A DNA stretch of 23,060 nucleotides from a virus. Shown piece after piece: positions 2,538 to 15,810 of this stretch. The stretch spans positions 1 through 23,060 of the IMG/VR virus record IMGVR_UViG_3300025168_000712. One strand, given 5' to 3'. Within the stretch, counting starts at the first letter, position 1. Each line of letters starts with the position of its first letter. A model generated the notes under the pieces. That model was not told the DNA's origin. It made no database searches and saw only the letters and a list, made by a program, of their open reading frames with translations. Position numbers and translations under genes: made by a program.

Positions 2538-3010
2538 TGCCACGTCTGAGCATTGACGATCTGTCCAGCGAACTGGAAAAGCTGGACGAGCAGGACGGCA
2601 TTACGCCGGAAGCAGTTGTTGAGGTCGCAAGTGACCCCAACAACATCCTTCACGCCCATTTTGAGTGGGATGACGCGAAAGCTGGACACGCACATCGTAT
2701 CCAGCAGGCGCGACACCTGATCAAACGGGTGAAGATCACCACGCCTGCCGGCAGCACCACATCAAAATATGTGTCGGTCAGGATTGTCCACGACGAGGGG
2801 GATCGCGTTTACGAACCTATAGAGCGGGTGGTTTTGGATCAGTCCAAGTGGAGCTTCGTGCTCGACGAAACGCTGTTGGTGATTGATGAGGCGGCTGTAA
2901 AGATTGAGGTTCTGACCGATCTTGCGGTCAACCTTGGACAGGCGGACCTCGCTCGAAACATGAAACGAACCTGTTTCGATCTTCGCGAAATGGCGTCCAA
3001 CGCAACGTGA
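2537..3010 (+). CDS. Conserved phage protein with HFEWDDAKAGHAHRIQQAR motif
   Basis: A 157-residue protein translationally coupled to the preceding gene through a TGATG overlap. Residues 40-65 contain H-F-E-W-D-D-A-K-A followed by a charged helix (HRIQQARHLIKRV), a combination that recurs in phage and prophage small proteins, often just after a gene of the GVGEWRPE type. The N-terminus (LSIDDLSSELEKLDEQDGITPEAVVEVA) is helical and acidic, as in short DNA-bridging or regulatory proteins. No catalytic motif, signal peptide or membrane segment is seen. The two-gene operon ends here: the following 240 nt hold only a repeat array and the next promoter. No hairpin terminator with a T-tract follows. 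Confidence 0.65.
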   Translation: MPRLSIDDLSSELEKLDEQDGITPEAVVEVASDPNNILHAHFEWDDAKAGHAHRIQQARHLIKRVKITTPAGSTTSKYVSVRIVHDEGDRVYEPIERVVLDQSKWSFVLDETLLVIDEAAVKIEVLTDLAVNLGQADLARNMKRTCFDLREMASNAT

Positions 3011-3043
3011 CACATTACGTTCCTGGCCTGGTTTGGCGCGGTT

Positions 3044-3188
3044 GGGATTGGCAAGGCAAGGCAGTTACGGCGGGGCACGGCACGGCCCGGTTCGGCAAGG
3101 CGAGGCAAGGCAAGGCAAGGCAGTTGCGGCGAGGATGGCGGGGTAGGGCCAGGCAAGGCGGGGCACGGCACCGCAAGGCAGTTAAGGC
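3044..3188. repeat. GGCAA pentanucleotide array with 58-59 bp higher-order period
   Basis: A noncoding stretch of degenerate 5-mers (GGCAA, GGCGA, GGCAC, GGGGC). GCAGTT marks higher-order units at 3061, 3120 and 3178, spaced 59 and 58 bp, each preceded by GGCAAGGCAA- or CGCAAG-type sequence. The array ends directly at the TTGACA promoter (3188). The frames that run through it on both strands are products of the low complexity, not genes. Confidence 0.85.
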
Positions 3189-3858: not shown

Positions 3859-3931
3859 AATGGGACCGGAATATTTTTTGTTAATCGTAGTGGGTAGTAT
3901 CATATCAGCCGTTCTGACGTACTGGTATTGA
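3809..3931 (+). CDS. Small single-span membrane protein (40 aa)
   Basis: A perfect AAGGAG lies 6 nt before the ATG at 3809. The product starts with a strongly basic region (MKKIWKRLKRKENWESR) followed by one hydrophobic helix (YFLLIVVGSIISAVLTYW, residues 22-39), giving a positive-inside, N-in topology. The size and layout fit a holin-like or spanin-like accessory, or an inner-membrane superinfection-exclusion peptide; none can be chosen from sequence. It starts inside the zinc-finger gene and its TGA overlaps the ATG of the methyltransferase (TGATG at 3929-3933), so the three are translationally chained. Confidence 0.55.
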   Translation: MKKIWKRLKRKENWESRMGPEYFLLIVVGSIISAVLTYWY

Positions 3932-4887
3932 TGCTTACAACCGTTGATCTGTTTTCGGGAATAGGTGGATTTGCCCGTGGCCTTGAGGCTACCGGGCATT
4001 TCCGCACTACCTGTTTCGTGGAGCAGGATCCATATTGCCAGGCGGTGCTGAAGCATCACTGGCCCGACGTTCCTATACTGGATGACATAAGAAATGCCAA
4101 AGCCTTCGACTTTCCCGACGTCCGACCCGACCTTGTTTGCGGAGGATTCCCTTGCCAGCCGTTCTCACAGGCGGGAAGACAACGCGCCCAGGACGACCCC
4201 CGCCATCTCTGGCCAGAAATGCTTAGAGTTATCCGGGAGCTCCGGCCCACTTGGGTTGTTGGAGAGAACGTTGTTGGGCTCATCAAACTGGGCTTGGACG
4301 AAGTACTCACTGACTTGGAAGGCGAAGGCTACGCCACAAGGACGTTTAATATTCCAGCTTGCGCGACAGGCGCCCCGCACCTCAGACAGCGCGTCTGGGT
4401 TGTTGCACACGCCGACAGCGAAAGCGAACCAGATGGCACCTTCGATGGCAACGCGGGACAGCGGCAGTTGGGGCTCAACTTTGGGGGGCGCGAAGCCCCA
4501 TCACATGGTGCCAACCCCAACGACCATGGATCACATCGAGCGACAGAACACGAACCTGACGCCCAGCACGGGGAAGCTCAACTACGAGACGAACAAGTCC
4601 GTGAGCCTGGATCGGTGGGTCAGGATGTGGCCGACGCCAACCGTTCAGGACAGTGCGAACAACGGGGGTCCGAGCCAGTTCAGGAGGAACAGTCTGCCTC
4701 TGAATGCACAGGTGAAGCTGGACCAGAAAACCACTGGCGCTCTGAACCCGCAGTGGGTCGCTTGGTTAATGGGCTACCCAACCGAGTATCTCAGTTGCGT
4801 GCCCTGGGAAACTCAATCGTCCCGCAGATCGCGCAAGAAATTGGACAAGCAATAAGGATCGCACATGACGTATCAAAAGAAAATTAA
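3931..4887 (+). CDS. C5-cytosine DNA methyltransferase, main (alpha-type) polypeptide
   Basis: Transfers methyl from S-adenosylmethionine to C5 of cytosine in DNA, probably to protect phage DNA from host restriction. Motif I is DLFSGIGGF (residues 6-14), motif IV GGFPCQPFSQ with catalytic Cys75, motif VI ENV (112-114), motif VIII QRVWVVA (153-159), motif X ALGNSIVPQI (291-300). Motif IX and a normal target-recognition domain are missing from this frame: residues 161-270 are low-complexity and polar. The missing parts are encoded in the overlapping +1 frame (next entry). The length, 318 residues, matches the alpha subunit type of M.EcoHK31I. I start at 3931 (ATG in TGATG) rather than the TTG just upstream. 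No restriction endonuclease gene is nearby, so it is a solitary phage methylase. Confidence 0.9.
   Translation: MLTTVDLFSGIGGFARGLEATGHFRTTCFVEQDPYCQAVLKHHWPDVPILDDIRNAKAFDFPDVRPDLVCGGFPCQPFSQAGRQRAQDDPRHLWPEMLRVIRELRPTWVVGENVVGLIKLGLDEVLTDLEGEGYATRTFNIPACATGAPHLRQRVWVVAHADSESEPDGTFDGNAGQRQLGLNFGGREAPSHGANPNDHGSHRATEHEPDAQHGEAQLRDEQVREPGSVGQDVADANRSGQCEQRGSEPVQEEQSASECTGEAGPENHWRSEPAVGRLVNGLPNRVSQLRALGNSIVPQIAQEIGQAIRIAHDVSKEN
4094..4855 (+). CDS. Overlapping methyltransferase subunit (beta-type, carries motif IX)
   Basis: This 253-residue frame lies wholly inside the methyltransferase gene, shifted +1. Its content is protein-like rather than random: it has TLFAEDSLASRSHRRED and SLTWKAKATPQGRLIFQLA segments that I recognise from phage cytosine methylases, three copies of a P-T-P-T-type motif (HTPTAK, PTPTTMD, PTPTVQD), and LNPQWVAWLMGYP (about 217-229), which fits motif IX. 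It would supply the target-recognition region and motif IX that the main frame lacks, as the beta polypeptide of M.EcoHK31I does. Start choice is uncertain: there is no good Shine-Dalgarno at 4094, and a TTG at the T-L-F-A-E-D segment is possible. A pair of frameshifts in one ancestral frame is the alternative. Confidence 0.72.
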   Translation: MPKPSTFPTSDPTLFAEDSLASRSHRREDNAPRTTPAISGQKCLELSGSSGPLGLLERTLLGSSNWAWTKYSLTWKAKATPQGRLIFQLARQAPRTSDSASGLLHTPTAKANQMAPSMATRDSGSWGSTLGGAKPHHMVPTPTTMDHIERQNTNLTPSTGKLNYETNKSVSLDRWVRMWPTPTVQDSANNGGPSQFRRNSLPLNAQVKLDQKTTGALNPQWVAWLMGYPTEYLSCVPWETQSSRRSRKKLDKQ

Positions 4888-8819: not shown

Positions 8820-9176
8820 ATGAGCACGGTCTACGTCACACAAGAAAACCCCCGCGTGAATATCGTTTCCGCAGCTAGGTGGGGTGATTTAGAACCGCTC
8901 ACAAGCCCTTTTGATCAGATTCACATAAACCCCATACGCATGGTGTCTCAAATCAGGCGCAAGCTTCGGGGATTTACGGATGATGATTGGCTTTTGGCCA
9001 TGGGCGACCCCGCCATCATAGGGGTATCTTTTGCTATAGCTGCGGAAGTCAACCAAGGCCGTGTCAATCTATTGAAATGGGATCGTATGGAGAAGTCCTA
9101 CTATCCTGTGAAGATATCGTTGCGCGGTGTTGGCATTGAGAACTTAAACCCTGACGAGGAGATACGTTATGAGTGA
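8820..9176 (+). CDS. Conserved phage protein (118 aa), first gene of replication operon
   Basis: Soluble 118-residue protein. The segment DDWLLAMGDPAIIGVSFAIAAEVNQGRVNLLKWDR is a motif I know from numerous phage small proteins positioned ahead of replication genes: G-D-P plus an alanine-rich helix and L-L-K-W-D-R. The function is unknown. AAAGAGAG precedes the ATG. It overlaps the next gene by 8 nt. With the coupling and its first position behind the promoter it is probably an early or middle gene. Confidence 0.7.
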   Translation: MSTVYVTQENPRVNIVSAARWGDLEPLTSPFDQIHINPIRMVSQIRRKLRGFTDDDWLLAMGDPAIIGVSFAIAAEVNQGRVNLLKWDRMEKSYYPVKISLRGVGIENLNPDEEIRYE

Positions 9177-9738
9177 ATCCGACTTATGGAAAACGATAGA
9201 AGCTGATGCGGATGCGTTTGAGGATTTGACGACCGGGGCCAGTACGGAATTGGCTGGATTAATAAGGCAGGTTGGTAAGGTCCAGACGGATCTTGTCCGT
9301 GCCGAGGAGAACCTCAAACTTTTGAAGCGGAACAGAGATCGATACCTGCATGAACTAATTCCCCAAAAAATGCAGGAGACGGGGTTAGACAAAGTTGTAG
9401 TCGGCGGAAATAGCGTCAGCCTAGCAACCTTTGTCAGTGGCACGATGCCAAAAGACCCCATGCAGCGCGACATTGCATTGTCTCATTTACGAGAAATCGG
9501 TGCGTCTGACTTTATTAAGAACCAGGTCAGCGTTTCATTTCCTGTATCCGAGGATAATCGTGCTCGTGCTATGCAAGCGGATCTTGAGGAAAAAGGTTTT
9601 GACACTGCTGCAAAGACTTGGGTCGAACCTCAGACGCTCAAAAAGTTAATACGAGAGCGTGTAGAGTCCGGCCAAGAAATCGATCTCGAAATATTTAACG
9701 CACACATTGGAACCATTGCAAAAATCAAAGGAGAATAG
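9169..9738 (+). CDS. Coiled-coil phage protein of the replication module (189 aa)
   Basis: Residues 20-70 form a long coiled coil (LAGLIRQVGKVQTDLVRAEENLKLLKRNRDRYLHELIPQKM), followed by strands (KVVVGGNSVSLATFVSGTMP) and a C-terminal domain with KNQVSVSFPVSEDNRARAMQADLEEKGF and TWVEPQTLKKLIRERVESG. This architecture recurs next to ssDNA-binding-protein candidates in phages; the general plan (helical N-terminus, small beta part) also resembles siphophage Gp157 and Gam-type nuclease inhibitors, but I do not claim homology. It overlaps its upstream neighbour and ends 2 nt before the next ATG. Confidence 0.65.
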   Translation: MSESDLWKTIEADADAFEDLTTGASTELAGLIRQVGKVQTDLVRAEENLKLLKRNRDRYLHELIPQKMQETGLDKVVVGGNSVSLATFVSGTMPKDPMQRDIALSHLREIGASDFIKNQVSVSFPVSEDNRARAMQADLEEKGFDTAAKTWVEPQTLKKLIRERVESGQEIDLEIFNAHIGTIAKIKGE

Positions 9739-9740
9739 AC

Positions 9741-10514
9741 ATGGCTAAAACAGCAAAATCGCTTACGAAAGAACTCGCCGCCGCTTTTGAAGACGACGCG
9801 GGGTTTGGGTTTGAAGAAGTAACATCATCCGATCTACAGATACCTTTTCTGCGGATCATACAGGCGTTATCGCCGCAACTCAAAAAGAGTGACGCTGCTT
9901 TTATTGAGGGCGCTAGTCAGGGCGACATTTTCAACACCGTGACGAACAAGGTCTGGTCTGCTGACGAAGGCGTAATTGTGCTTCCGGTGCATTTCCAGAT
10001 GAAGTTTCTGGAATTTGTACCGCGCAGCCAAGGCGGCGGATTTGAAGGAGAACTGGCGGCCGACTCAGAGGATGTCCGTACCTCCGTTCGAGATAAGGAC
10101 TCCGGCATGGAGTTGCTGTCCAATGGCAATGAGCTTGTGCGGACGGCCCAGCATTATATCAAGATCGTCCATGAAGACGGCAATCTGGAGAATGCAATTG
10201 TGGACATGAAGAAGACACAACTCAAGAAGAGCCGGTTGTGGATGTCTATGATGATGATGCAGAAGCACAACGGCAAGACCATGCCCTCGTTTGCCAGTAC
10301 GTATCGCCTCAAGTCTGTTGAGGACGGCAACGACAAAGGCTCATGGGGTTCGTGGAGCATTGCTCTGGAGGGTGCTGTTCCATCGATGGAGGCTTACACC
10401 GAGTGTCGGGAGTTGCACGCGTCGATCAGTTCGGGAGAAATAAGGATTTCTCCGCCTAGCGATCCTACAATTCAGGCTATTCATGAGATAACATCTGACG
10501 ATGTGCCGTTCTGA
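9741..10514 (+). CDS. Putative single-stranded-DNA-binding protein
   Basis: A 257-residue protein, AAAGGAG before the ATG. The start (residues 20-50) has the phage sequence SSDLQIPFLRIIQALSPQLKK; the core is beta-rich with glycine-containing loops, and an acidic linker leads to a final T-S-D-D-V-P-F. This tip is close to the D-D-D-I-P-F end of bacterial SSB that docks replication and repair enzymes. Proteins with such a beginning are commonly located ahead of primase, helicase and polymerase genes in phages and are presumed ssDNA-binding. No classical OB-fold motif can be proven by eye, so the function is inferred from tail and context. An intrinsic hairpin follows the stop. Confidence 0.6.
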   Translation: MAKTAKSLTKELAAAFEDDAGFGFEEVTSSDLQIPFLRIIQALSPQLKKSDAAFIEGASQGDIFNTVTNKVWSADEGVIVLPVHFQMKFLEFVPRSQGGGFEGELAADSEDVRTSVRDKDSGMELLSNGNELVRTAQHYIKIVHEDGNLENAIVDMKKTQLKKSRLWMSMMMMQKHNGKTMPSFASTYRLKSVEDGNDKGSWGSWSIALEGAVPSMEAYTECRELHASISSGEIRISPPSDPTIQAIHEITSDDVPF

Positions 10515-10521
10515 GTGACTA

Positions 10522-10553
10522 GGGACCCGCGCAACAGCGGGTCCCGTTTATTC
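10522..10553 (+). terminator. Hairpin with T-rich tail between SSB candidate and primase
   Basis: GGGACCCGC (10522-10530), loop GCAACA, GCGGGTCCC (10537-10545): a perfect 9-bp GC-rich stem followed by GTTTATTCT. The primase ATG at 10556 begins 10 nt after the stem and has no Shine-Dalgarno in between. It is likely a partial terminator or 3'-end stabiliser that makes the upstream products more abundant than the primase and helicase. Confidence 0.8.
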
Positions 10554-10555
10554 TG

Positions 10556-12091
10556 ATGGAAAATTCAGCACAGAGGTTCCTTGATCTGTTCACCGGATCT
10601 CAAGGCGCCCATGGACAGACAGACGTTTTAGGTCGTCAAAAGAACGGCAAACAACAGGCAAAATACGAGATTGTCCGTGAACCGTTGACCGTGGAGCTTG
10701 TTCAAGAGCACTTGGACGGGAGCCTTGGTGTTGGGTCTATTCCCATTGATGAGACTAACAAGTGCCTGTTTGGGGCCTTGGACATAGACGACTACAACTT
10801 AGACCTTCCAGTTCTGTTTGCGAAGGTCAAGAGGTTTAAACTGCCTTTGGTCCTGTGTCGGTCCAAGTCTGGCGGCGCACACCTATATCTTTTTATGTCA
10901 GAGAAGGTTGCAGCATCCGAAATGCGCGACAGGCTGGCAGAGTTTGCATCTGTTTTAGGTTGGGGAAACTGCGAGATATTTCCTAAGCAGGAGGAGTTGC
11001 TGGCGGAACGCGGCGATGTGGGAAACTTTATTAACCTTCCTTATCAGAACGCGAAATACACTACCCGCTACGCTTTGAAGAAGGGTGGCGATTCTCTGGA
11101 CTTGGAGAGTTTCCTTACACTGGCCGAGAAGGCTCGGATTACAGCCAAGCAGCTATCCAACATATCCTTGGGGGGAGACAACGGGGTGTTGCCGGATGGC
11201 CCTCCTTGCCTACAGAAGCTAACAGAGTTTGGGATACCTGAAGGCGGCCGCAACATGACGCTGCTCAACGTGGGTGTTTACTACAAGCAAGCGTCACCCA
11301 ACGATTGGAAGGAACTGCTCGAAAAGCATAACCAGGATTACTGCACTCCCCCTCTGCCGGCGCGTGAGGTTGTCCTGATACAGGAGCAGCTGGAAAAGAA
11401 AGAGTATTTTTATACGTGCAAGTCTGAGCCTATCCACGGCCACTGTAACAAGTCGCTCTGCCGGTCGCGGAAGTTCGGAGTAGGTGATGCTAACTCGCAC
11501 GTTCCGGTTGGCGGTCTGACAGTTGTTGAGTCTGAGCCGCCGGTCTGGTTTGTGGACGTGGACGGCGCTCGCCTGGAGTTGTCTACCAAACAGCTACAGA
11601 TGCAGGTTGAGTTTCAACGGGCTTGCATGGAGCAGATGTACAAGATGCCGGCCCGGATGAAGGAGAACGATTGGCGGGATCTGGTCGATAATCTTCTAAG
11701 TGACGCAACACGGATATCGGTTCCAGAAGAGTTGACCCAGAAGGGTCTCTTCGTGGAACTTTTAGAAAACTTTTGCACTTCTAGAATACAGGCACACAGC
11801 CCAGAAGAACTGTTAACGGGAAAGCCTTGGACCGAGGACGGCCTGACGCATTTCAAGTTAAGTTCTCTACAGGATTTTTTAAAGCGCAATAACTTTACGT
11901 TATACACCCGTGGGCAGATCACCGAACGTTTAAAAGAGATGAACAATGGAGCGGAGTCAGACAAGACTTATCGCTTCCAAGATAACAATGATAACTGGAA
12001 GTCTGTGCGTGTCTGGTGTGTACCGGAGATGCATCGCGGTGAGGTTGACCTGCCAGAGGTTACGTTTGAACCAGAAGATCCACCGTTTTGA
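10556..12091 (+). CDS. Archaeo-eukaryotic primase (AEP) of the TOTE-like phage type
   Basis: Makes RNA/DNA primers for replication. The AEP core is clear: ALDIDDY with catalytic D76 and D78, C-R-S-K-S-G-G-A-H (101-109; nucleotide-binding Ser and His), EIFPKQ (140-145) and GNFINLPY (156-163). The same order occurs in the primase domain of TOTE conflict systems and of phage primase-polymerases. A cysteine/histidine cluster, C-K-S-E-P-I-H-G-H-C-N-K-S-L-C, at about residues 288-305 fits a zinc-binding or PriCT-like element. The 511-residue length leaves about 200 unassigned C-terminal residues ending in PEDPPF, an SSB-tail-like tip. Helicase function is supplied by the next gene, which starts within the stop of this one (TTGA). 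The start lacks a ribosome site; an ATG at 10556 is the only early start. Confidence 0.82.
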   Translation: MENSAQRFLDLFTGSQGAHGQTDVLGRQKNGKQQAKYEIVREPLTVELVQEHLDGSLGVGSIPIDETNKCLFGALDIDDYNLDLPVLFAKVKRFKLPLVLCRSKSGGAHLYLFMSEKVAASEMRDRLAEFASVLGWGNCEIFPKQEELLAERGDVGNFINLPYQNAKYTTRYALKKGGDSLDLESFLTLAEKARITAKQLSNISLGGDNGVLPDGPPCLQKLTEFGIPEGGRNMTLLNVGVYYKQASPNDWKELLEKHNQDYCTPPLPAREVVLIQEQLEKKEYFYTCKSEPIHGHCNKSLCRSRKFGVGDANSHVPVGGLTVVESEPPVWFVDVDGARLELSTKQLQMQVEFQRACMEQMYKMPARMKENDWRDLVDNLLSDATRISVPEELTQKGLFVELLENFCTSRIQAHSPEELLTGKPWTEDGLTHFKLSSLQDFLKRNNFTLYTRGQITERLKEMNNGAESDKTYRFQDNNDNWKSVRVWCVPEMHRGEVDLPEVTFEPEDPPF

Positions 12092-13620
12092 CAGACCAGC
12101 ATGAAACCATCCTTGGGCCGCCCGGCACTGGCAAGACCCAGACCAACTCCAACAAGATCAGGGATTGCATTGAGCAAGGCATAGCGCCTGACCGCATAGC
12201 CTGCGTGTCGTTTACGCGTAAGGCTGCGAAGGAAAGCCGAGATCGCGTGTGCAAGGATTGGGGAATTGACGAACGAGACATGCCCTACTTTCAAACGTTG
12301 CATTCCATGGCCTTCCGGGCTGGGGGGTATAGCTCCGATGAAGTTATTGGACCCAAGGAGATGATCGAAATCGGTAATGCTGTTGGGATACCGTTTGGCA
12401 GCAAGGGCAAGACCGATATTGAGACAGACTTTGACACGGTCGGGGTGGCCAAGGGCGATTTCTACATGAGCCAGTATCACCTGTCGCGGAGCAAGGGACT
12501 AAGCCTCGAGGAGATGCACCGACAGTTGGGTGATTATCAGGTTGATTGGCCAGAACTCAAACGTCTTGTAGCGGCCTACAACGACTACAAAAAGGTTCGC
12601 AACAAAATAGACTTCACGGACATGATTGCGAATTTTGTTAAATCAGACGACGGGCCAAACATAGACGCCCTGTTTGTGGACGAGGCGCAGGATCTGTCTA
12701 CCCTTCAGTGGTCCATGGTCGATGTACTGCGGAAGAAGCCCCGCATACAGGTGTTCACGGGCGATGACGATCAAGCCATCATGGGATTCCAGGGTGCGGA
12801 TGTCGGGGCGTTTCTAAACGCGACAGAGAAAAAGACGGTTCTTGAGCAGTCGTACAGGGTTCCTCGTTCAGTTTGGCAAGAGGCCCAGAACATCGTCTGT
12901 CGGATTGAGGGCAGAGCGCCGAAGACTTGTCGTCCCAAGGATGAAGAAGGCAGCGTCCACGTTCACCAGAGCATTTGGGATGTACCGTTTCATGAGGGCG
13001 AGTGGTGCGTCATGGCGCGAACGAACCGCATTGCGTCTCAATATGCTCAGGCTCTTCGTGCGGAAGGGTGGGTCTATAGCCGCAACGGTCACCCCAGCAT
13101 TCCGGTTAAAACATACGAAGCACTTCACGATTGGGAGGAATGGGCCAAGGGAGAGCCGCTGACGCCCACCAAGATAAGAAACGTCTACGCATTCCTAGAA
13201 GTCGATAAAGGCTACTCACGGGGCCATGGGCCGCGTTCCAAGGCCCTTTTGGGGCTGGATTCGGATGCTATGATCAGCATGTCGGAGGCTAGAGACAATA
13301 TGGGGCTTCTGGTGGATGGTTCTGTGCGGTGGCATCGGGCCTTGGGCAAGATTGATCTGGATACCAAGAACTACGTTTTGAATGCTTTGAAGCGCAAAGA
13401 TAACGTGCGTAATCCTCGAATAAAGGTTAGTACTATACACTCAATGAAGGGTGGGGAGGCCGACAACGTTTTGGTCATTCCGGACCTGTCTTATGCGGCT
13501 CATAAGGAATATCAAAAGAATCCGGCGACTGAACACAGGGTCTATTACGTTGCTGTCACCAGAACCAAGAAGGCGTTGCATATAATGCTACCTGAGACGA
13601 ATCGGTTCTACGACTTATGA
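12088..13620 (+). CDS. UvrD/Rep-like superfamily 1 DNA helicase
   Basis: A 510-residue 3'-5' helicase. Walker A GPPGTGKT (residues 10-17), motif Ia VSFTRKAAKESRDRV, motif II VDEAQD (about 196-201), motif III GDDDQAIMGFQGAD (about 227), motif IV QSYRVP, motif V STIHSMKGGEADNVLVI (about 449-465) and motif VI VYYVAVTRTKK (about 485). It is shorter than UvrD (about 720 aa) because the 1B/2B insertions are reduced, as in phage forms. It starts with TTG in the TTGA overlap with the primase stop, so primase and helicase are made in a coupled way; they are probably the replicative pair, since no DnaB-type helicase is present in the window. It ends in an ATGA overlap with the next gene. Confidence 0.9.
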   Translation: MTDQHETILGPPGTGKTQTNSNKIRDCIEQGIAPDRIACVSFTRKAAKESRDRVCKDWGIDERDMPYFQTLHSMAFRAGGYSSDEVIGPKEMIEIGNAVGIPFGSKGKTDIETDFDTVGVAKGDFYMSQYHLSRSKGLSLEEMHRQLGDYQVDWPELKRLVAAYNDYKKVRNKIDFTDMIANFVKSDDGPNIDALFVDEAQDLSTLQWSMVDVLRKKPRIQVFTGDDDQAIMGFQGADVGAFLNATEKKTVLEQSYRVPRSVWQEAQNIVCRIEGRAPKTCRPKDEEGSVHVHQSIWDVPFHEGEWCVMARTNRIASQYAQALRAEGWVYSRNGHPSIPVKTYEALHDWEEWAKGEPLTPTKIRNVYAFLEVDKGYSRGHGPRSKALLGLDSDAMISMSEARDNMGLLVDGSVRWHRALGKIDLDTKNYVLNALKRKDNVRNPRIKVSTIHSMKGGEADNVLVIPDLSYAAHKEYQKNPATEHRVYYVAVTRTKKALHIMLPETNRFYDL

Positions 13621-13889
13621 AACCAGACGAGATTTTAAAAACAGCAGCGTCACTAGTAAGTGGAGATCGCGCCGAGCAATATGGCGACTACACCATCATG
13701 CATCAAAGGGCGGCAGACCTCTGGAGTGCATATTTGAAAGTTGAGATTAAACCGGCAGACGTTGCTCTTTGCATGGCGTTATTAAAAGTAGCAAGGAACG
13801 AAATGGGCCAAGTCAAGCCAGATAACGGTATTGACGCTTCCGCATACGTAGCCTTGTGGTCAGCAATGATGGAAGACAAAAATGCGTGA
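13617..13889 (+). CDS. DUF6378-like phage protein (90 aa)
   Basis: A short helical protein with the family pattern I recognise as DUF6378: S-G-D-R-A-E-Q-Y-G-D-Y near residue 15, then HQRAADLWSAYL and PADVALCMALLKVAR. Several phages carry it near replication genes. The fold is likely related to all-alpha NTP pyrophosphohydrolase-like or dUTPase-associated helical bundles, but no catalytic E-x-x-E-D set is visible, so no enzyme activity is claimed. It is linked to its neighbours by ATGA upstream and an 8-nt overlap with the polymerase. Confidence 0.72.
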   Translation: MKPDEILKTAASLVSGDRAEQYGDYTIMHQRAADLWSAYLKVEIKPADVALCMALLKVARNEMGQVKPDNGIDASAYVALWSAMMEDKNA

Positions 13890-15810
13890 GGACCTGTTTG
13901 ACGAGACTGTCTGGTTCCCTCCGGAACATCTGCCAGACTTGTCCGGCGAGAAAATTATCGCCATAGACACTGAGACACGGGATCCTCACCTGAGAGACTT
14001 GGGGCCAGGGTGGGTTAGAAACGATGGAAACCTTATAGGAATTTCTGTTGCCGCCTCTGAGTGGAGCGCCTACCTGCCGATTGCCCACGAAGGCGGGGGG
14101 AACATGGCAAAAGATCTTGTACTCAGGTGGCTCCAAGACCAATTAGACCACGGAATGTCTGTGGTATTCCACAACGCGCAGTACGATCTAGGGTGGCTCT
14201 TGAGCGAGGGTGTCGAGGTCAAGGGTAAGATACTCGATACCATGGTCGCTGCACCGTTGGTGGATGAAAACCGTTTCAGTTATTCCTTGAATGCCTTGGG
14301 CGCCACTTATCTTGGTGAGCGTAAGGCGGAGGAGGACTTACGAAGGGCGGCGGGTCAGCATGGTGTCGATCCCAAGGCAGAGATGTGGAAGCTGCCGGCA
14401 GACAGGGTTGCTGCCTACGCGGAGAAGGACGCGACCCTCACACTTAGCTTGTGGCATGTTCTGCACAAGAAATTGATGGAGGAAGACTGCGAGAAGATCC
14501 TTGATCTGGAGTTGTCTCTGCTTCCTATGGTGTTTGAGATGAAGCGCCGGGGTGTTCGGGTTGACGTGTCCAAGGCTGAACAAACAAAAAAACTTCTGAC
14601 GGACAAGGAAAACAAGCTTCTTGGGGAGGTCCACAAAGAATCCAATGTTCATCTGGAGCCTTGGAATGCCAGAAGTCTGGCTACGGTGTTTGATAGTTTG
14701 GGATTAAGCTACGAACGAACTGAAAAATCGGATGCTCCCAGTTTCACCAAACATTTCTTGAAGACCCATGAACATCCTGTTGCGCGGAAAATCTTGGAGA
14801 TACGCGAATACAATAAGGCAAATACGACCTTCGTTGATACAATTCTTAATCATCAGCATGATGGTCGAATCCACTGCCAGTTTAACCAGCTGCGCTCAGA
14901 TGAAGGAGGAACTGTTTCGGGGCGATTTTCTTCCAGTAATCCAAACCTGCAACAGGTGCCCTCTAGGCATCCAGAGATAAAATCTTTGATTAGGGGGCTG
15001 TTTATCCCGGAAGACGGTTGCCGCTGGGGAAGCTTTGACTACAGCGCCCAAGAGCCTCGCTGGATGATGCACTACGCTTCCTTAACGCCCTCGACCAAAA
15101 ATAACGAAAAAGTTAAGGAGATTGCGGAGCAATACCAGAATGACGACTTGGACTTCCATCAGATCGTTGCCGATATGGCTGGTGTAAGCCGGACACATGC
15201 CAAAACGATTAACCTTGGGATCATGTACGGTATGGGCATTGGTAAGCTGGCGGCAACCTTGGGGGACATTCCCTTTCAGGAAGCCAAGTCTCTCCGGAAC
15301 GAATATGACGAGAAAGTTCCTTTTATTCGTGCGCTCGCATCTGCTGTAATGGATGCTGCCTCGAAGCGTTCTGAGTTAAGAACCTTATTGGGCCGGAAGT
15401 GTCGATTCCCCATGCGCGAGTTGAAAGGATATTCCAAGGAGTACAAGAAGCCTGTCCACGCAGAGAAGCTGGAAGAGCGTTGGGCGGATGTTCTGAACAC
15501 GCCTGTTGAGGAAAGAGACAAGAACTGGGCCAGCATGAACCCGGAGAGATATCAGGTTGCCTTTGTATACAAGGCTCTCAATCGATTAATCCAGGCTTCG
15601 GCGGCCGATCAGACCAAGCAAGCGATGAAAGACTGCATGGACCATGGACACTGGCCCATGCTCACGGTTCATGACGAGCTCTGCTTCTCAATAGAGAGCG
15701 ATGAACAGGTGACAGAGATCAAGGGTTTGATGGAGAATTGTGCGCCGGGTCTGACCATACCGTCCAGGGTAGACGTAGGGTTGGGTGATAATTGGGGTTC
15801 AGCGAAGTAG
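13882..15810 (+). CDS. polA: DNA polymerase, family A, with 3'-5' exonuclease
   Basis: Replicative phage DNA polymerase, 642 residues. The proofreading domain is intact: Exo I AIDTET (D29, E31), Exo II HNAQYD (about 97-102), Exo III YAEKDAT (about 179-185). The polymerase domain has motif A FDYSAQEPRWM (D386), motif B R-T-H-A-K-T-I-N-L-G-I-M-Y-G (R437, K441, Y449) and motif C HDE (597-599). No 5'-3' exonuclease domain. At the position of E. coli Pol I Phe762 there is leucine (L445), a variant seen in many environmental phage PolA proteins and linked to slower, more accurate or temperate-type replication. It is the last gene of the replication operon and converges with the late operon 5 nt later (TTTAATTAAA between). 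Confidence 0.95.
   Translation: MREDLFDETVWFPPEHLPDLSGEKIIAIDTETRDPHLRDLGPGWVRNDGNLIGISVAASEWSAYLPIAHEGGGNMAKDLVLRWLQDQLDHGMSVVFHNAQYDLGWLLSEGVEVKGKILDTMVAAPLVDENRFSYSLNALGATYLGERKAEEDLRRAAGQHGVDPKAEMWKLPADRVAAYAEKDATLTLSLWHVLHKKLMEEDCEKILDLELSLLPMVFEMKRRGVRVDVSKAEQTKKLLTDKENKLLGEVHKESNVHLEPWNARSLATVFDSLGLSYERTEKSDAPSFTKHFLKTHEHPVARKILEIREYNKANTTFVDTILNHQHDGRIHCQFNQLRSDEGGTVSGRFSSSNPNLQQVPSRHPEIKSLIRGLFIPEDGCRWGSFDYSAQEPRWMMHYASLTPSTKNNEKVKEIAEQYQNDDLDFHQIVADMAGVSRTHAKTINLGIMYGMGIGKLAATLGDIPFQEAKSLRNEYDEKVPFIRALASAVMDAASKRSELRTLLGRKCRFPMRELKGYSKEYKKPVHAEKLEERWADVLNTPVEERDKNWASMNPERYQVAFVYKALNRLIQASAADQTKQAMKDCMDHGHWPMLTVHDELCFSIESDEQVTEIKGLMENCAPGLTIPSRVDVGLGDNWGSAK

Follow-up and report, generated by a model that had tools for sequence, protein, structure and literature searches.

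We analysed a 23,060-base virus window from a marine phage (IMG/VR record IMGVR_UViG_3300025168_000712), in which two adjacent genes encode a gp34-like protein of 257 amino acids (aa) and a 511-aa archaeo-eukaryotic primase (AEP). Both proteins end in a tip like that of the bacterial single-stranded DNA-binding protein (SSB), the gp34-like protein (hereafter gp34) in ...HEITSDDVPF and the primase in ...VTFEPEDPPF. Across related phages the last residues of the two proteins often agree even where they are not PF, which suggests that the tips covary beyond what independent evolution would produce. We give a somewhat better than even chance to the reading that gp34, as an OB-fold (oligonucleotide/oligosaccharide-binding) protein binding single-stranded DNA (ssDNA), and the primase dock by these tips in one phage-encoded pocket, forming a hand-off device.

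The initial annotation had read DDVPF at the end of the 257-aa protein and EDPPF at the end of the primase in the adjacent gene, and the two genes read exactly so. Of the window's 53 complete ATG-initiated open reading frames (ORFs) of at least 60 aa, none but these two has a PF end. The expectation that such ends would recur in homologues is borne out within the window's clade, where the C-termini are not unrelated. Unique C-termini from the first two viral-contig scans end in PF in 64/66 gp34 homologues and 63/63 primases, compared with 5 of the 1616 unique ends that other ORFs of these loci have in any frame. The extended motif [DE]xPF is found in 62/66 gp34 and 62/63 primase ends, and [DE][DE]xPF in 55/66 and 57/63, the latter being absent from the background set. 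The two gp34 ends without PF (L099 and L003) appear to come from ORFs that are cut or broken in frame. In alignments of 32 gp34 and 25 primase rows, P and F are invariant, whereas the stretch ahead of the tip varies both in sequence and in length. Such a variable, predicted disordered tail with an invariant PF at its end has the build of an SSB C-terminal tip, and both proteins of this clade have it. The tip codons differ (GAT GTG CCG TTC TGA in gp34, GAT CCA CCG TTT TGA in the primase), so that the two ends are not DNA-level copies of each other.

Named relatives have tips that do not always end in PF and yet often agree between gp34 and the primase, and we therefore scanned for distant primases. 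The paired tips (gp34/primase) are QDIV/ENIV in HTVC027P (Pelagibacter), GGEF/KSEF in DMU1 (Acinetobacter), HSEF/KAEF in Kokobel2 (Providencia) and ENIPF/GSPF in DSL-LC04; ct3Et533 has KDIPFA/PPPFV, with one added residue past PF in both proteins. The pair set comprised 451 sequences, of which 363 had both genes complete and gave 250 unique pairs, incomplete loci being dropped. For the tree, pairs more than 95% identical with equal tips were removed, leaving 209 leaves. The last two residues of the two proteins are identical in 133 of the 209, including 44 with endings other than PF, and the matched endings are of 11 types (PF, IV, NY, SF, PY, EF, NF, VF, IM, II and IL). When the pairs were clustered at 50% identity, 10 of 22 clusters had identical dipeptides against 2.26 expected under permutation (p = 5e-5); where neither end was PF, 6 of 13 matched against 0.62 expected (p = 5e-5). 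We further simulated primase ends evolving independently on a tree of the protein cores without tails, under three frequency models with 2000 runs each. The simulated maxima were 105 matched leaves, 29 matched non-PF leaves and 6 dipeptide types, placing p at its floor of 5e-4. As controls, the cluster test was applied to 11 other gene pairs, and it gave no match in ten of them and one match in the primase-helicase pair (p = 0.35 and 0.10).

Several observations weigh against co-evolution of the tips, or limit how far it can be taken. At 40% identity, 2 of 5 clusters match (p = 0.15) and the signal is gone. The simulation used a simple model, and its tree was built from gp34 and the primase themselves; the control pairs are weak because their ends seldom share a dipeptide, which puts the null near 0. 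The covariation lies mostly between lineages. A binary independent-pairs test of five traits gave averages per trait of 1.6-2.9 pairs changing in the same direction and 0-0.1 in the opposite one; for P before the last residue the averages were 2.9 same, 0.1 opposite and 4.0 without difference, of 7. The direction agrees with covariation, but the test was not significant, with at most nine usable pairs and low power. A later held-out scan yielded 62 new loci, 55 of them with both genes and 49 below 90% primase identity to the earlier pairs; PF stands in both proteins in 42 of the 49 and the ends differ in 7. Nearly all of these pairs being PF, the scan lacked the variation needed to test covariation.

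The matching dipeptide is broken in 76 of the 209 leaves, and these too speak against the reading. HTVC023P-like phages have VPF in gp34 and KFRT or similar in the primase; R26L, Pan1 and R5C have DEVPF or EEIPF in gp34 and a tip-free primase. Further groups combine APF with ML, MI, LL or MM, or HY, HF or IM with IL, and PSA28, K21lambda1 and PMBT28 combine DM or EM with EF. In addition, acidic residues are scarce in the NY and SF tips, with 0.25-1.0 D/E at positions -8 to -3. We searched the ORF ends of ten isolate phages, covering most or all of each record, for other tip partners. No convincing partner was found among the ORF ends of 14-1 and ECML-117 (gp34 AEEF in both) or of HTVC023P (SVPF), the weak candidates being an end GEDF in 14-1 and KDEF in ECML-117. 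In R26L (Dinoroseobacter), an uncharacterised 359-aa protein of phrog_8203 (vBDshSR26L_20, L486:6027-7106) ends in DDEVPF, as does the gp34 of that phage.

These mismatches and the non-significant independent-pairs test would suit an alternative in which each tip has its own partner and the likeness reflects convergence on an SSB-like end together with shared ancestry; the third-from-end and acidic residues, which are not the same in the gp34 and the primase of a given phage, point the same way. However, both the cluster permutation and the tree simulation reject independence, and rare ends such as NY, SF, IV and PY would be needed twice in the same lineage. We therefore regard separate partners as unlikely.

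The same search of ORF ends revealed a tip on a primase of another family. YuA gp34 ends in GGGKPVF and its gp26 in SDKPPF; Ab18 gp34 ends in GKKAPF and its ORF22 in EKKDPF. Both YuA gp26 and Ab18 ORF22 belong to the DNA primase family phrog_1829 and contain a DUF5906 helicase part. This family is not that of the window's primase, although the N-terminus of ORF22 matches RepB_primase. YuA gp26 (L484:11964-14375) is annotated as a putative integrase and matches primase phrog_1829 at E = 6e-170. The phrog_1829 family is present in 11 of 14 YuA-like IMG/VR records, a set that includes records of the isolates themselves; its end is readable in 10 and is PF in 9 of these, the exception being G024. 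Of the gp34 proteins beside the nine PF-ending primases, six end in KPVF and three in PF. Counting against the reading, the last two residues are identical in 3 of the 10 YuA-type records, although a terminal F is common to both proteins in 9. Vibrio phage K227 has a phrog_1829-type primase without a match (PAEM, GDTV), and no phrog_1829 protein was found in three large window-clade records or in 6 of 9 named phages searched. These ends raise the possibility that the tip code may outlive the exchange of one primase for another of a different family.

The predicted structure of gp34 suggests that it is probably an OB-fold, gp32-like ssDNA-binding protein. It is a clear member of Pam3_Gp34 (PF23977; E = 4e-66, 223.7 bits, cut-off 27) and of phrog_2402. 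Among the matches listed, homologue records are mostly named hypothetical protein, with ssDNA-binding protein in Lydia, ATP-binding protein in PaTs-2 and DSL-LC04, and primase in PAKlein3. At E up to 0.1 gp34 matches PF23977 alone and not the bacterial SSB family PF00436, which matched none of 24 records, several of them fragments. An AlphaFold2 model built with 32 relatives has a mean pLDDT (predicted local distance difference test) of 77 and shows a beta-rich core, with the final 21 residues below 50. The top structural match of the core is the phiC31 recombination directionality factor (RDF; Z = 8.0, 155 aligned residues, 3.9 Å), followed by a BRCA2 region (Z = 6.1) and the RB69/T4 gp32 core (Z = 5.8, 154 aligned, 4.2-4.3 Å); bacterial SSBs rank lower, at Z of about 3 to 4, interspersed with other proteins. 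A comparison with predicted viral structures gave 41 hits at E 0.001; nearly all are uncharacterised proteins and one is named ssDNA-binding protein. The label of ssDNA-binding candidate that the protein had carried has support of a structural kind only, from the OB-like predicted core and its gp32-like matches. On the other side, a Foldseek search of the model against the PDB returned nothing at E 0.001, neither PF23977 nor phrog_2402 has an assigned function, and the OB assignment depends on Z values of 8 or less, which are suggestive rather than proof. The phiC31 gp3 protein, which is the RDF ranked first by fold, was inspected and has no PF end. A designed cage protein, the sole PDB sequence match obtained with the gp34 alignment, had an E of 1.1 and was taken as chance.

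The 511-aa protein is an AEP, with AEP-TOTE (PF22548; E = 4.8e-15, 56.2 bits, cut-off 27) as its sole Pfam match and an E of 3.2e-91 to phrog_21866, and the fold is supported by its likeness to the CAPP Prim-Pol (Z = 20.0, 191 aligned, 2.8 Å). D76, D78 and H109 are invariant in the 25-row alignment, and we take the acidic pair and the histidine to be catalytic residues of the AEP type. Beyond the catalytic domain lie a helical middle and a C-terminal region with weak winged-helix-type matches; the final 18 residues of the model have a pLDDT below 50. The helicases sit in separate genes, so this is not a primase-helicase fusion.

We next consider whose pocket the tips might enter. Host SSB tips are bound by partners such as PriA, RecO and the chi subunit of the clamp loader, and both phage tips could imitate the SSB tip, recruiting these partners or blocking host SSB there. 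We compared SSBs from the bacterial class of a genome titled Maricaulis bin, which may not be the host of the window; 51 of 58 genomes had an SSB match, and 30 loci from them and one more were read, the seed ORF itself having been chosen for its PF end. An SSB-like ORF ends in PF in all 31 loci (DDEIPF in 19, DDDIPF in 8, and NDDVPF, NDDIPF, DDEVPF and DDDVPF once each); three more bacterial ORFs matching the SSB seed do not end in PF. The tips of the window's clade, such as SDEVPF, DDVPF and DEDIPF, are nearly equal to these ends, so that host partners are possible in that clade. However, related phages end in IV, NY, SF, PY or EF in both proteins, a variation not seen among the SSB tips of the bacteria examined, and IV, NY, SF and PY tips are difficult to reconcile with a host pocket adapted to PF. 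Moreover, phages with a separate small SSB carry PF there, whereas their gp34 ends otherwise: ZP6 and PSA28 have an SSB ending in DDDIPF, K227 in DDGIPF and DMU1 in DDDLPF. Host mimicry as a general account thus appears improbable to us, and the tips speak for a docking site that is shared and phage-encoded rather than for one of the host. The initial annotation had proposed one docking pocket, perhaps on a host protein or on the phage polymerase or helicase. Its shared pocket is supported by the covariation, and a host owner is disfavoured as the general answer.

K21lambda1 and PMBT28, where the small SSB is known by annotation, also have a gp34 without PF, making six such phages. That the small SSB takes over the tip is a lead only, as the six look like two lineages. 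The phrog_2544 (362 positions) and phrog_4477 (393 positions) families, which have no function, match small phage SSB tails in their last ~30-60 positions and may carry SSB-like tips themselves. A search for the host through prophages found two clade relatives (L517, L518) in metagenome bins titled Maricaulis and SAR202 Chloroflexi; these are probably binned phage contigs and give no safe host.

Taken together, we infer a model in which gp34 would be the phage's own gp32-like ssDNA-binding protein, its flexible tail acting as an SSB C-terminal tip, and the primase would bear a second copy of the same tip on its own flexible tail. Both tips would enter one phage-encoded pocket that reads the last two residues and the free carboxylate. 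Our guess is that the pocket most likely lies on a replisome enzyme, either the family A polymerase or the adjoining UvrD-like helicase of superfamily 1 (SF1), which would be held by ssDNA-bound gp34 or by the primase on a new primer, a hand-off like that of the T7 gp2.5 and gp4 tails. A shared plug on one replisome enzyme is proposed by analogy with T7 gp4/gp2.5 and with T4 gp32-Dda. A more specific form of this proposal, on which we see the balance as even, is a lineage-specific paired C-terminal code, in which the ends evolve in step with the phage-encoded pocket and yield orthogonal versions of SSB-type docking. As a point against the model, scans of seven proteins for alignment columns associated with tip type brought out no receptor residue. 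The strongest columns mostly split the PF lineage from the rest, and the null was poor, its tree having been built from gp34 and the primase.

The proposal has several precedents. The bacterial SSB tip (DDDIPF) and the tip of gp34 both follow a disordered linker and consist of acidic residues and x-P-F, the carboxylate being free, and the protein that carries the tip is in gp34 too a presumed OB-fold binder of ssDNA; by contrast, gp34 has no PF00436 match, the primase here bears a tip, and the phage tip varies by lineage. In Escherichia coli, DnaG binds the SSB tip through a pocket (PMC6783573), the reverse of the phage arrangement. In T7, the acidic C-terminal tails of gp4, a bifunctional primase-helicase (PMC3997047), bind basic patches of the family A polymerase (PMC8472574, PMC12593628); the gp2.5 tail, acidic as well, has been implicated in contacts with the polymerase and the primase-helicase (PMC5686142). 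In T7 the ssDNA-binding and the priming protein of one phage thus both have acidic C-terminal tails; gp4 is fused to a helicase, whereas the AEP here stands alone, and no report of matched co-changing ends was found for T7. T4 gp32 is an OB-fold ssDNA-binding protein whose core is among the best gp34 fold matches. Its C-terminal region recruits the helicase Dda through an internal segment (residues 248-270; PMC11551737) and not through the extreme end, where the tip stands here. Pam3_Gp34 had been a family without function, and the tip and the primase pairing are newly described for it. We found no account in the open-licence literature of a phage SSB and a primase with matching tips, and as far as could be found there, co-changing ends of an ssDNA-binding protein and a primase have apparently not been described before.

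It is also conceivable that gp34 itself is the receptor, its tail folding onto its own OB cleft and the primase tail displacing it and so reaching ssDNA-bound gp34. Such self-docking has been discussed for the tail of T7 gp2.5. It is also discussed for the T4 gp32 tail (PMC11551737). Such an arrangement would explain why gp34 and the primase are the proteins that share the tip, and pocket and tail, both lying in gp34, would coevolve. However, the tail is undocked in the AlphaFold2 model, with a pLDDT below 50, and the gp34 column scans are indistinguishable from shared ancestry, which leaves this option doubtful. A sorting or stability signal (C-degron) read by a protease or adaptor is very improbable. 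The exposed hydrophobic end that each protein has on its predicted disordered tail would suit one, but among seven protein types compared the tip is confined to the ssDNA-binding candidate and the primase, and PF is the end of SSB.

SSB tips are treated as a nearly invariant bacterial motif, and the phage tips here vary by lineage; if the proposal is true, a single SSB-type docking system exists in orthogonal versions from phage to phage. The Pam3_Gp34 family, so far functionless, gains a likely role. Sharing of a docking site by primase and SSB becomes testable through natural variation, as the lineages offer both matched and mismatched peptide pairs. The tips also offer a way to look for the receptor and, through the last residues of a protein, to annotate phage primases and candidate SSBs.

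Features of the tip-bearing locus in the window, and small SSB genes of related phages
Feature	Position	Strand	Basis and remarks
gp32-like protein	8820..9176	+	PF23992, phrog_5888; part of conserved gene order; tip-free
gp33-like protein	9169..9738	+	PF23984, phrog_2378; part of conserved gene order; tip-free
gp34-like protein, 257 aa	9741..10514	+	Pam3_Gp34 PF23977, phrog_2402; predicted OB-like core ~28-236, disordered tail 237-257
Tip codons SDDVPF of gp34-like protein	10494..10511	+	Translation, homologue ends, alignment
AEP primase, 511 aa	10556..12091	+	PF22548 AEP-TOTE, phrog_21866; catalytic domain ~1-208
C-terminal parts of AEP primase	within 10556..12091	+	Winged-helix-like ~391-494 (weak fold matches), disordered tail 494-511
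Tip codons PEDPPF of primase	12071..12088	+	Translation, homologue ends, alignment
UvrD-like SF1 helicase, adjoins primase	12088..13620	+	Profile matches; putative tip receptor, candidate only
Family A DNA polymerase	13882..15810	+	Profile matches; putative tip receptor by T7 analogy, candidate only
Small phage SSBs (phrog_7364, phrog_18154)	L207:4388-4675, L208:4625-5104, L209:11147-11473, L212:11669-11971		Ends DDDIPF, DDGIPF or DDDLPF

The order gp32-gp33-gp34-primase-UvrD helicase, with polymerase A further on, is also found in DSL-LC04 and partly in R26L, 023Pt and HTVC023P. Elsewhere in the window, the ORF at 3928-4887 resembles what we take, from its DLFSGIGG and PCQPFS motifs, to be a DNA cytosine methyltransferase, and a 253-aa ORF is open in another frame across most of the same interval. 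The stretches at ~540-760 and 3010-3180 have short repetitive translations (TRLDPTP, GKARQ), suggesting intergenic tandem repeats.

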